Shown one piece after another: positions 4,246-62,989 of a DNA stretch of 64,000 bases (its first letter is position 1; every line of letters begins with the position of its first letter). The position numbers were made by a program, and so were the translations under genes. The stretch comes from Ianthella basta (taxonomy: Eukaryota > Porifera > Demospongiae > Verongiida > Ianthellidae), in contig OZ025885.1 of the NCBI GenBank assembly GCA_964019415.1, positions 2,574,851-2,638,850 on the forward strand. The letters run 5' to 3'. Below the pieces are notes generated by a model that did not search any database, was not told the origin of the DNA, and was given only the letters and a program-made list of their open reading frames with translations.

Positions 4246-7200
4246 CTAATCTTTGTTAATAAAAGCTAGTTCCAGGGCACAGGCAACAAATGGGTCTAGT
4301 TCTCTGATGAATGAAGCTGCATCCACCTTGCTTCTGTCCTTGGGACTGACCTTGATTCTTGTGGGGTCACAAAACTTGCCTGCAAACTCCTCCTCTGGTG
4401 TCTTCCCAACCAGGACAGCAAAGTCAGCCATCCACTGACAGTTCCACAACTGTGTGCAAAATGTGCACAGGAGAGGTATAATTATGGTGAAGGGTATATG
4501 CCATATCTTTTGGGTCGGTTGTCCAGCCCAGATGGTTGCAATCGGTTACTGGTTATTGACCTGGTGACATCATAATGGAGGCTACAAGTCTAGTTCAAGC
4601 AGTGGCAATTGGAATGAGAAAGACTGGCATATAGTGTGTTTGGACGTTTCAAGATGAGAATGGTGGGGACATTTCTGTACTAAGAGGAAAACGTCTCCAC
4701 AATAAGTGAACAGATGGCACGGGGGGCTAAACAGACTTGTGCTGATCTCAGCAGATTTTCTGAAACCTAGATTTCAGACCATTGAGAAACCGTCAAATCA
4801 CAACCAGTCAGTGATTCCAGTGGCCGCCTTTGCCACATAACTCAAATTCCCAACACAGCATCCGCCTACAAAATTGGGTATACTAAAGGTCTCATCAAAA
4901 TTGCGTCACTCGGTCAATAATTGATAACCGATAACTGATTGCAACCATCCAGTCAGGACAACCGACCAAAAAAGTACTGTATCTGTTCCTGTATATGAAA
5001 TGAGAATTGGACCATCAAGCAACTGCACACTGTAAATCTATACATTAAGGTACTAAGTAGGTATGGCTATATATATAGTGAACGCATTTGCCTTCATTCT
5101 TGATGGTGTAGCTATTAACATCATCAGAAGTCTTGACTCAAGTATCATGACTGTATATGTTCACACCGTCACAAGTTATGGATCGAGGATGAAAGTTATA
5201 ATAATTATTTGTAGTGTGCATGGTATTAAAGCTACATAGGCAAAAGCAATGTACCTAAAGGAAGATTTATAGCCATATACTATCTACATATACATGCATG
5301 CAAAACTAGTGACAAGCTATCTTATTACAATAAATGTAACGCATATTTCAATGTTCAGGAATTACTCCTTTATTCTGAATGGAACGTCACAAAACGTGGT
5401 AGGATTACGAAAAGGCGTATACATTCACTGTCACAAGTTATGGAGGATGAAAGTTATAATAATATCCTTTGTGTGCATGGCACATGGCACTGAAGTTGCA
5501 CAGGCAAAAGCAATGTACCAAAAGGAAGCTTTATAGCCATATACTACCTACATATACATGCATGCACAACTTGTTACAAGCTATCTTATTATAATAAATG
5601 TAACGCACAGGGGTGCATTTGGGGGGGGGGGGGGGGAGCACAGGGGGGCATTCGCCCCCCTTTGGAAAACCCTATCCAGCCTTATGTCATATTTAAGACC
5701 CCCCCTTATTTCTTGAAACCTTAATCTTGCCCCCCTTGAAGAAATTTCTAAATACAGCACTAACACATATTTAAATGATCAGGAATTACTCATTTAGTTC
5801 TGACAGAACATCACGAAACGTGGTAGGATTACGAAAAGACGTAGCGAGAGTAACTTGGTTGAGCCAAATTTGGTTTAAAGTCATCCTATCCGAGTTCTTG
5901 CCATGCACTTATACAGTCAGTGTCATATCTAAGAGATAGGGAAAAGACAGTGTTTCATTGTTCACAAACTCCTCCTTCCATTTTCCATCAATCTTCACCA
6001 AACTTAGAAGAGTATATCACAGCAATTAAGGGGGTGACCTGAGGCAGTTAGTGCCTTCGCCACTGAATTTCTTTGGAAGAAATGGATTAACATAAGTAAA
6101 ATCTGTACGTAGAGAGTTTTATGGAAAGAGTCTACGGAATACTCTCAATTAAATAGATGGTTTTGATTGGTTAAAAACTCAAATACAAACCGTAGACTGG
6201 GAACCCACCCAAAGGGTGGGTATTCAGCTAGTTTCTATTGTGCCATCATGTGAAAATATTGGGAAAGCACTGCAACACACATACATTGCTGCATACTCAG
6301 CTGACTTAGAGGACAAACCTCCACTTCATGGTGCTTGTTCTTGAAGTGCAGCTTAACTTCCATGTCCCCTGCAGCAGATTTAGACTCTTCAGCATAGCAA
6401 TCTTCCACTTGATGATAGTGGGCCAGTATGTAAGGGCAGTCTCCATGTACTTTATCCCGGTGGGTGACCAGATACATGGTGTACCTGCCCCGACGGGCAA
6501 ATTTAATGGAATATCCTGGTGGTTCCTTCACATACAAGCAGCCTTCCCTGCTGTTGAGTAAAAATTAATTTTTACAAATTCACAGTTGATGATACAATGA
6601 TACAATGATGCAGAATTTTGCAGTGTCGCAAACTAAAAAATTCAGGAGTAGTGCGACATTTTGTTTGTATTACAGTATACAAACAACCACTGCCATCCCT
6701 ACATAGACAGCACTACCGTGCTGTTGGTAGTGCTGTCTGGTATTCACCTTAAAGCCATCCCATATTCCTGCACGAGATCCTCTGCTACTTTTCTCATCTC
6801 TTCCACTGCTTCAGGTTTGGCATCTTCAATTACGCAAGTGGTAGCAATCCTCAAATCCAGGTCCCTACAGGGAAATTAAGACATGATCATACACAGTGAA
6901 CATGCAGAATCACAACTACAGGTCAGAGGGTGTCATGATCAGGATGTGAAGATATTGTGTACCATGCAAGCACACATGTATATAGTTATACACCCACACA
7001 TACATACATTGTGCAGCATCCCCACCACACTTAAACACTATACATAAGTACCTTTCCAAGTTGAGACAGTCAAAGATGTACTCTTTGCTTTTGCCATCCA
7101 AAATGACCTCTACAATTTCAAATTTCTTACCATTTTTCCTTATACGAATCAGGTACTTATCGCCTACCAAGATTCTGTGAATTGTTAGGTCAATTCTGTA

Positions 7201-10200
7201 AGCCTCTCCAATTTGAGGAAACTTATCTGATTCATCTTTCACACAGTCTGGAATAGTGGTGTCTGGAAGGCTGCAGATAACATGGTGATGTTATAACATA
7301 ATATTATGCAGTTAGCACTTAGCACAGTTAGGTGCACAGAGTAAGAATTGAACAAAATGGACTGTGCTCAATACAATGACAAATTAATTCCTACAATTGT
7401 TAGATTTCATACTTGACTTTTACCCAGTACACAGAGTAAGCACTACATCAGCCAAACAAGCACTATACTGTGATAGAGTATATAGGTAAAATTTAACTAA
7501 CCAAAATTAATGGTTTCACACAAGCTGAATGTTCATGATTGTATTGCAGTACTGTACTTTAAACACAAAGAAATGTTGGGCATGCACAGGTACAATGTTA
7601 TCATTGTGGTACTACCAAGGTTGGTAGTGGATGGCAACCAACTGTTCCAGCGCTTTGACAGTATACACAACAACTAAATTTGTTGGGTATTTCCGAACAG
7701 GCCAACAAGAGAGGGCAGTGAAAGTTATGGCACACGTGTTGTCTGCATGCAAACTCTTCTCATGCATACAGATTGCCATAATAATTCTTATAGCTCTAAG
7801 GCCTTTGTGAATAAGCTATGTATGCTTGTGAGGGGTCAAAGAAGATAGCAGTTGGATTATCCTTTGTCTGCTACCTCCCCCAGAGACTGTGCTGTAAATC
7901 AAACTTTGCAATCATCCCAAGCTACACATATACTTACATAGCTACACAGTCTGTCAATGTCTACTAAAATGGGATTGCACAATATTACACATACCTCTGT
8001 ACACATCAGTTGCACTATTTTGATGGCAGATGCCACTTACACAGTTGGGAATTCCCATCTAATGCCTCTTCTTCCAAGTTCACCTTCAACTGACATCATA
8101 CCACCTTTCTCGAGATCCTTTATTTTATATCTCCCCATCAATACTTCATCAGAGACACAGTTCCGTCCTTCACTTCTCCAGAGAACCTTACCATACCTAC
8201 ATTGTGAAAGAAAGAGATGTTAAGTAAATATAGAACATGCAAAAGGGCATGTAAATCTTTGTATGTATTAATTATTCTGATGTATCAGTTATCATAGTAT
8301 CCTTGTTTCACATGTGCAAAGAAATAAAGCATGCAAACTTGCTGCAGAAGGGTATATAATGCATACTGTAATCATGAATGCTACCAGGCTACCATTACTA
8401 GGTAAAAGTGAAGAAATGTATCAACAAATTGTGGGCTGCTATCCTAACGTAAATGCATATTTAGATAACTCATAGTTAGTTTTGCATTGTAGATGGATTG
8501 CCAGTATTTAACGTAACAATGTAGTACTCAGAGCCTGGCCTTTATTAACTTTCTAAGGATTATGATCCAGCCTCAATTCAAGCCTGGTTTCTGTTAAACA
8601 TTGGTACAAAATGAACTGATACCTAGTCTCGCGTAGCCAGACCGCCATCTTTGCTCAGACTCCGCCTTCGCAAAAGACGGTCTGGGAGCTTACGCCGTTT
8701 ATTTTTCCTGACAGGAGTCTGAGGAAGTTGGGACCGACGATTATTCATGATTCCCTTATAAGGCAGGAAGGTGGTGCTAACACCTTGCGCTGCGGTCGCT
8801 CGCTCCCAGGTATTAAGCCTGCACGTGACCTCACTGTGTACACAAACACGCAATGATTAGGAACTGATCAGGGCACGCTGCAAACAAACACGCAAGCACA
8901 GTTCACGTTAGTTGCCAGGCTACAAACGTAGATTGCTATCTGCAGCCGGCCTAATGCATGCCTAATGCTATCTCCCATCCTCTACCTCTGCAGCTGAGTG
9001 TCTAGAACACAGAACAACAAAGACACATGCAGTTGGGTTCTTTTACAGCTTTGCTATTCTGTGTTGTGGACACTCAGCTGCAGAGGTAGAGGATGGGAGA
9101 TAGCATTAGGCATGCATTAGGCTGGCGGAAGATAGCTATCTACGTTTGTAGCCTGGCAACTAACGTGAACTGTGCTTGCGTGTTTGTTTGCAGTGTGCCC
9201 TGATCAATTCCTAATCATTGCGTGTTTGTGTGCACAGTGAGGTCACGTGCAAGCTTAATACCTGGGAGCGAGCGACTGCAGCGCAAGGTGTTAGTGCCGC
9301 CTTCCTGCCTTATAAGGGAATCATGAATAATCATCGGTCCCAATTTCCTCGGACTCCTGTCAGGAAAAAAAAACGGCGTAAGCCCCCAGACTGTCTTTTG
9401 CGGCGGTCTGGCTACGCGAGACTAACTGATACCTACCAGTGTTTCTATTTAAATTTGTTATATTGAGCCCAAGGTTGTCTGTCAAGATCCACACATGCTG
9501 AGCTTCTCAAAGCATGTGAGAAGTCATCACGTTATACAATCTGGTCTGGAACCCAGCTACACCTTTCCCTCCACAGCTTTCAGCGAAGACGTTGTATAAT
9601 TTCGAGGTGCCTCTGGACATTGCCGCTGCGCTGGGAACTCCAGTCAGTCGATTACCACGGGCAAAAGGTATCCTGTGTAGATTGAAGGAGATCCTCTTTG
9701 GAGGCAATGTGCTGGTTAACGCTGGTCTCTTTACTGGAGAGATCGAACCCAGAACTTGCTGTGTAGCCAACACGAAACACTAAGGAGAGAGCTGTAGATG
9801 GCAGCTCAGCTCAAGAGTGGCCCAAATCCACGCTTACTGCTGAAACCCAATGCAAAACCATTTGCTCTCTACACCCCACGCAATGTTCAAATTCACCTGA
9901 GGAAGAAGGTCCAGGATCAGTTGTCCCGCATGCAATCCCTCATCATCTGTCACGTCATCAGCTGTCTCATTATTAGCTGTCACCCTCACCTATTTAACCA
10001 CCAAACACTCTGTAAGCCATTACCACTGAAAAGGCAGCAGTCATCTGCCGAAACGTTTGGTAAAGAAATGAAATATTTAGCTACTGACTTCCAAGAGAAT
10101 TACTAGTGATGCAACCTAGCTGGACAAGCTTCTTCAAACATGGTAGGAATATGAAGAAGCATTGCAGATGCTCTATCCAAATTTTGGTTTAAAGTCGTTC

Positions 10201-62785: not shown

Positions 62786-62989
62786 CTAATCTTTGCTAAT
62801 AAAAGCTAGTTCCAGGGCACAGGCAACAAATGGGTCAAGTTCTTTGATAACTGAAGCTGCATCCACCTTGCTTCTGTCCTTAGGATGGACCTTGATTTTT
62901 GTGGGGTCACAAAACTTGCTTGCAAACTCCTCCTCTGGTGTCTTCCCAACCAGAACAGCAAAGTCAGCCATCCACTGACAATTCCACAA
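62786..62989 (-). CDS. Last exon of KH gene E (remainder beyond the right edge)
   Basis: 67 codons plus a TAG stop, starting LWNCQWMADFAVLVGKTPEE and ending in the family signature KELDPFVACALELAFISKD. Acceptor and length are identical to those of the other E10 exons. The following intron (to base 64000) aligns with intron 9 of genes A and C, including the same TIR element at 63047-63511. Gene E is therefore the next array member and probably continues past the window with E9 about 2 kb farther on. Confidence 0.75.
   Translation of the reverse strand: MWNCQWMADFAVLVGKTPEEEFASKFCDPTKIKVHPKDRSKVDAASVIKELDPFVACALELAFISKD

Follow-up and report, generated by a model that had tools for sequence, protein, structure and literature searches.

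A recombining tandem array of KH-domain genes with a conserved C-terminal tail in the sponge Ianthella basta

Are the repeated KH-domain genes of a sponge chromosome segment working genes, how did they come to differ, and could they read foreign RNA? We addressed these questions for a 64,000-nucleotide stretch of Ianthella basta DNA (the window; contig OZ025885.1, called C18 here, positions 2574851-2638850) in a 209-Mb, 96-contig genome, where a preliminary description, made from the letters alone, had noted a tandem family of KH genes. We found that the genes share one exon plan, mostly keep open reading frames and carry 5' KH cassettes that have been exchanged between C-terminal tails; of this anatomy and exchange we are nearly certain. 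For the whole chain, from the KH array to recognition of foreign RNA in defence, we estimate a probability of about 0.4.

Exon plan and extent of the array

Exons were mapped across 2545001-2808800 of C18, window included, and 12 gene bodies were modelled (1, A, C, D, F, G, I, J, K, L, M and O). Read 5' to 3', the plan is a leader, a KH domain split over two exons (KH1 and KH2), sometimes a second split KH domain, and then seven exons, E4 to E10, for about 400 residues. The leader has 23-29 codons in complete genes (26-27 in the window) and starts M-A-Y, or M-A-H in gene M. Intron phases at the two exon ends are 0/0 for KH1, KH2 and E4, 0/2 for E5, 2/2 for E6, E7 and E8, 2/0 for E9 and 0/stop for E10. 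Hence, the plan first proposed, with a 27-codon leader, a split KH domain and a long C-terminal region, recurs in the same order and phases.

We found that 89/91 acceptors and 78/81 donors fall on the exact predicted base when exon matches aligned end to end are counted over the 12 bodies (partly aligned matches are left out, and for up to 14 exons, the templates, the agreement is built in). At other in-phase offsets, 3-18 bases away, the counts were just 0-23/91 acceptors and 0-11/81 donors. For genes A, C and D alone, 22/23 acceptors and 20/20 donors were exact, so the agreement of splice sites and frames initially seen among these three genes is borne out, and their assembled spliced proteins give open frames (lengths in Table 1). 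The 228/228 splice signals of the final models are there by construction and hence are no evidence.

The spliced frame is open with a single terminal stop in 9 of the 12 bodies (1, A, C, D, F, G, I, J and L), and eight of these run complete from ATG to stop, no leader having been found for gene L. A premature TAG interrupts E10 of gene K, and the frame of gene O is broken (E7 is broken and E10 shortened). The automatic model of gene M holds one stop, which the next downstream acceptor places in an intron; gene M may be intact, although the end of its KH2 is unsure. Stray KH2 fragments, one each in genes G and M, were omitted from the final models.

The array covers about 306 kb, with its outermost KH match at 2871884-2872039, and extends beyond the window at both ends. 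With the last exon of gene A as query, 19 places in the genome matched at E 0.001 or better, and all 19 lie on the minus strand of C18; the C18 matches listed for the C-terminal query are likewise all minus. Only two plus-strand matches came from the exon queries, neither below E 1e-3. Two further bodies, near 2847622-2855502 and 2862817-2868561, are known solely as search matches. Hence, this is an array on one strand with at least six members, three of them complete, as the preliminary description had it: A, C and D are complete in the window, and F and g1 (gene 1) lie there in part.

Cassette exchange and selection

We found that the tail does not share its history with the leader-KH half, as judged from their trees, which goes beyond the preliminary description. 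In the tail tree, whose six inner branches are all starred, the pairs are D and L, G and J, and 1 and I, and gene C joins A and F. In the tree of the first KH domain, where three of the six inner branches carry a star and L is flagged as a long branch, 1, C and D form one group and A, F and I another. Uniting 1, C and D under the tail data cost 239 log units (approximately unbiased p-value, p-AU, 2e-59), and a constraint that unites A, C and F cost 151 log units under the first-KH data (p-AU 4e-23); both p-values are descriptive, since the groups were picked after nearest-neighbour identities had been seen. By these trees the conflict is large: genes 1, C and D carry nearly one KH cassette on tails of three lineages.

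Genes C and D also share a duplicated block of about 6.6 kb, whose pieces are 97.6, 92.7 and 99.1% identical, the last piece being 5.4 kb long. Synonymous divergence (dS) between C and D is 0.69 in the tail vs 0.04 in the shared KH domain. The block ends on one side within the intron directly after KH2, and on the other it touches the last bases of E10 of gene F. Assembly error could in principle have affected copies so nearly identical, yet they adjoin different tails. The upstream sequences, compared by eye, form one class in 1, C and D and another in A, F, G and I. Genes F and I have a stop-broken second leader copy ahead of their second KH domain, which fits fusion of neighbouring cassettes. 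Hence, with relics, a solo E10, the duplicated block and the conflict between KH and tail trees, the idea that the array gains, loses and recombines members is well founded.

We found pairwise ratios of nonsynonymous to synonymous divergence (dN/dS) of 0.31-0.51 in the tail (median 0.41; 36 pairs of 9 genes, K, M and O being left out of all dN/dS sums). Over all pairs, the exon values are 0.28 for E10, 0.34 for E9, 0.37 for E5, 0.39 for E6, 0.43 for E4, 0.46 for KH2, 0.53 for E7, 0.55 for KH1 and 0.67 for E8. By these ratios the tail is under purifying selection, and purifying selection dominates, in keeping with the early view that these are selected, working genes.

In close comparisons, dN/dS is 0.73 for the KH domain (95% bootstrap interval 0.44-1.40; 11 pairs within five KH types, a set that also leaves out gene L and the first KH of J) vs 0.39 for the tail (0.31-0.49; five pairs). 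The first KH exon alone gives 0.94 (0.44-2.46; 11 within-type pairs). Both x positions of the GxxG loop are among the four most variable, by nonsynonymous change, of the 39 codons of that exon; PMC12787238 describes the loop as crucial for RNA binding. These values suggest relaxed or diversifying change in the KH domain.

KH domains, C-terminal tail and other features

Contig C3 carries two divergent relatives, one on the minus strand near 9520087-9523600 and one on the plus strand near 9582922-9595139; relic matches are at 9515093 and 9637073. Read by eye over its KH1-E10 span, the first shows the exon order and phases of the array, and its tail is 29-33% identical to array tails (aligned with six of the nine). 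Since the plan is shared at this identity, the family predates the array, and the C18 array is an expanded branch of it. The intron after E5 of this gene seems to start with GC, not GT (sequence L039, near 2407). In bacterial and archaeal genomes and in viral contigs, searched with two short peptide patterns each, a relative was confirmed in none.

Pfam KH_1 scored 34.0-59.2 bits in 7/7 constructs (six from A, C, D and J, with A and C twice, and one C3 protein) against a curated cut-off of 21.5 bits, with E values of 3e-8 to 3e-16 across the constructs of A, C, D and J. Both glycines of GxxG are invariant in 15/15 KH units of 9 genes, and the motif is present in the C3 relative too. Among solved structures, a profile of eight units comes nearest, from E 3e-15, to KH chains of IGF2BP1 and IGF2BP3; FUBP/KSRP, Nova-1, FMR1, PCBP2 and TDRKH follow, FMR1 and TDRKH with weaker matches. 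A second KH domain is present in gene D and in genes F and I. Hence, with KH_1 above its cut-off in every construct scanned, the array is a KH gene family, as first named.

The tail is 393-410 residues long, and the motif N-C-Q-W-[LM]-A-D-F is retained in nine array tails and the C3 relative. We found no Pfam match above cut-off in any of the nine members, only a chance-level match to PRK04358 in NCBIfam (E 0.13, one of nine members), no match to PADLOC models of bacterial anti-phage defence proteins in seven tails, and chance-level PDB matches only (COUP transcription factor 2, E 0.94 and 0.67). DUF7905 (PF25482) reached 14.5 bits, E 0.018, in gene L alone among the nine tails, below its 22-bit cut-off, and DUF7903 (PF25475) reached 11.9 bits, E 0.11, with one of two tail consensus sequences, below its 26.5-bit cut-off. 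Given about a dozen related queries, the E of 0.018 is compatible with chance. DUF7905 is known from fungal KH proteins, which would add interest to the hint; it was not reported for the C3 relative, and a DUF7905 search of the sponge genome gave no match, which carries little weight as 14 controls likewise gave none. Three other candidates were taken as chance: Pox_I3 (E 0.12 in two of nine tails), the ARM domain of a TPR protein (E 0.2 in the tail) and an EMC1 propeller (E 0.24 in the C3 protein). Single-exon structure predictions were too weak for a fold search (E9, all-beta, predicted local distance difference test score, pLDDT, 65; E7, pLDDT 50).

Hence, profile searches of the C-terminal region gave sub-threshold or chance-level matches only, and the libraries searched assign no known domain to it. 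Calling the family undescribed can be kept in a narrower sense, that the family libraries held no significant tail match and that no description was met in the portions of the literature searched.

The features of the window are collected in Table 1. The retroelement there runs antisense to gene A within its E6-E5 intron. A Tc5-type transposase DNA-binding domain (55374-55706, minus; E 6.5e-8) lies immediately 3' of the second KH1 exon of gene D. On the strand opposite to the array, an open frame at 43393-44190 (plus) holds a collagen triple-helix repeat (Pfam E 4e-19) and a short Cys-containing tail. A 287-codon open frame at 22427-23290 (plus) has a GVEGSGHH stretch that resembles a P-loop by eye, with no Pfam match at E 0.01. 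A same-strand repeat pair at 23454-24344 and 32152-33049 is 94.7% identical, and long CA repeats lie at 14450-14826, 37756-38340 and 57409-57704, the latter two within the block duplicated between C and D. Elsewhere in the genome, a silicatein-like query matched nine places, and two of the three that were read are ordinary exons of cathepsin-L-like type.

Table 1. Features of the window, numbered from its first letter; exons are given 5' to 3'.
Feature	Position	Strand	Details
Gene A	4246..20418	-	Complete, 518 residues, one KH domain; leader 20341-20418, KH1 19458-19574, KH2 18015-18143, E4 17259-17438, E5 14009-14136, E6 8041-8196, E7 7052-7270, E8 6748-6864, E9 6319-6547, E10 4246-4449
Gene C	28522..39202	-	Complete, 513 residues, one KH domain; leader 39122-39202, KH1 38395-38511, KH2 36883-36999, E4 34885-35067, E5 34223-34350, E6 33655-33810, E7 31742-31951, E8 31443-31559, E9 30215-30443, E10 28522-28725
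Gene D	48058..58566	-	Complete, 576 residues, two KH domains; leader 58486-58566, KH1 57759-57875, KH2 56465-56581, second KH1 55889-56005, second KH2 54833-54949, E4 53847-54005, E5 53043-53167, E6 51681-51836, E7 50835-51047, E8 49073-49183, E9 48487-48700, E10 48058-48261
g1 leader exon	226..306	-	Gene to the left, C18:2565651-2575156; remaining exons outside the window
Gene F last exon (E10)	62786..62989	-	Gene goes on past the right window end
Duplicated block, copy 1	36688..43435		Upstream region, leader, KH1 and KH2 of gene C
Duplicated block, copy 2	56269..62807		Upstream region, leader and first KH of gene D
Solo E10 exon	21991..22191	-	Open; no further exon of its own among the matches beside it
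Broken E9/E10 relic	2737..3548	-	
Broken E9/E10 relic	27319..28111	-	
E9/E10 relic with stops	41433..42734	-	Within the duplicated block
E9/E10 relic with stops	60805..62106	-	Second copy of relic 41433..42734
Non-LTR retroelement	10543..13343	+	Endonuclease, then reverse transcriptase in a different frame; PF14529, PF03372, PF00078

Possible function and comparison with known systems

What might such an array do? We propose that a KH family has been amplified in tandem and would evolve by birth, death and cassette exchange. Its KH part very probably binds RNA, by analogy with other KH domains, which are among the commonest RNA readers; the targets would be short single-stranded RNA (or DNA) motifs. 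Different cassettes would give members different binding preferences, and the common tail would do one shared job, for instance dimerisation or the recruitment of a partner for RNA decay or signalling. Members would then recognise foreign or selfish RNA, of viruses or retroelements, in innate defence, the role that we favour, at somewhat less than an even chance. The KH dN/dS estimate above that of the tail counts in favour of it. In a stronger form, which we consider unlikely, the array would be a germline-encoded, recombining RNA-recognition repertoire, with 5' cassettes shuffled onto effector tails to make sensors or restriction factors against viruses and retroelements. If this form were true, the RNA sensors of each animal would be a set that keeps changing, comparable to plant NLR clusters but reading RNA, and their C-terminal domain would be one outside the libraries searched.

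Several observations weigh against this chain. Besides the after-the-fact choice of tree groups, the end of the duplicated block is placed for a single exchange only, and gene G is an exception to the match between upstream class and KH type, as its first KH looks like the second one of F and I. The dN/dS intervals of the KH domain and the tail overlap, and positive selection does not reach significance; by type, the KH ratio runs from only 0.32 (type IV) up to 1.19 (type III). Tail exon E8 (1.19; 0.58-3.74) changes as fast as the KH domain, so the picture of a constant tail and a variable KH is a tendency only. No death, CARD, TIR, nuclease or helicase domain was reported in the scans, and any tandem array would be expected to recombine, with or without selection for it. 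For the innate-defence or self-recognition role suggested at the outset, the Pfam and PADLOC scans gave no defence domain and the KH ratio no significant positive selection; a defence role is plausible at most.

About equally likely is an amplified mRNA regulator, that is, an ordinary post-transcriptional protein (acting on mRNA localisation, stability or translation, for example in gametes or development) that unequal crossing-over multiplied neutrally, with the mixing as a by-product. The resemblance of the KH domains to the mRNA regulators IGF2BP and KSRP, the dominance of purifying selection and the small divergent C3 set, which suggests an older gene behind the array, all favour such a regulator; the higher KH ratio and the contrast of about 14 bodies in the array with two on C3 count against it, and neither is decisive. 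We reject two further explanations. That the array is a mass of decaying pseudogenes with a few survivors would account for the four E9/E10 relics and one solo E10 of the window, the stop in K, the broken frame of O and the stop in the automatic model of M; it is very improbable given nine open spliced frames in 12 bodies, splice sites that hold and the tail ratios of 0.31-0.51. Retroelement and transposase-like sequence among the genes could point to carriage by a mobile or selfish element, which we find hardly credible, as matches are confined to one array and the small C3 cluster, orientation within the array is uniform, the multi-intron plan is conserved, and the peptide patterns confirmed no relative in viral or bacterial/archaeal contigs.

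At the minimum, the locus defines a protein family by an unassigned region of about 400 residues with the N-C-Q-W-[LM]-A-D-F motif. If members differ in the RNA that they bind, the array would be a compact natural experiment on diversifying RNA recognition and a candidate system for recognising non-self RNA.

The array proteins resemble the type I KH proteins IGF2BP, KSRP-FUBP, Nova and PCBP in their KH_1 domain with a VPxxxVGxIIGxxG stretch. IGF2BPs carry RRMs and four KH domains; in contrast, array proteins have one or two KH domains and a C-terminal region of about 400 residues, they come from a tandem array with cassette exchange, and no RRM was reported in the array tails scanned. They have KH domains in common with TDRKH, Bicaudal-C, vigilin and FMR1 as well. 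Tudor, SAM and Agenet domains mark such other KH families; no match to these was reported in Pfam scans of nine array tails and the C3 protein, in which HMMER filters drop most matches above E 0.1.

Arabidopsis likewise has a KH gene family, but no tandem duplication pair is reported for it in the part of PMC8745409 consulted, whereas the array here is tandem. In dinoflagellates, some RNA-binding-protein genes stand in tandem arrays, KH genes not being named in the portion of PMC12787238 at hand. For marine animals, the sponge Amphimedon among them, PMC8195603 describes putative immunity proteins that have expanded in particular lineages and whose variable parts include KH and RRM. In the literature searched, including parts of PMC3710099, we met no description of KH domains as a tandem, cassette-swapping array in an animal.

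Plant NLR genes and SRCR genes of sponges and sea urchins form tandem, recombining recognition clusters. The array proteins differ from these in being of RNA-binding type, with no recognised receptor, NTPase or death domain. Like those clusters, the sponge array lies on one strand, holds relics, exchanges modules and encodes two-module proteins.

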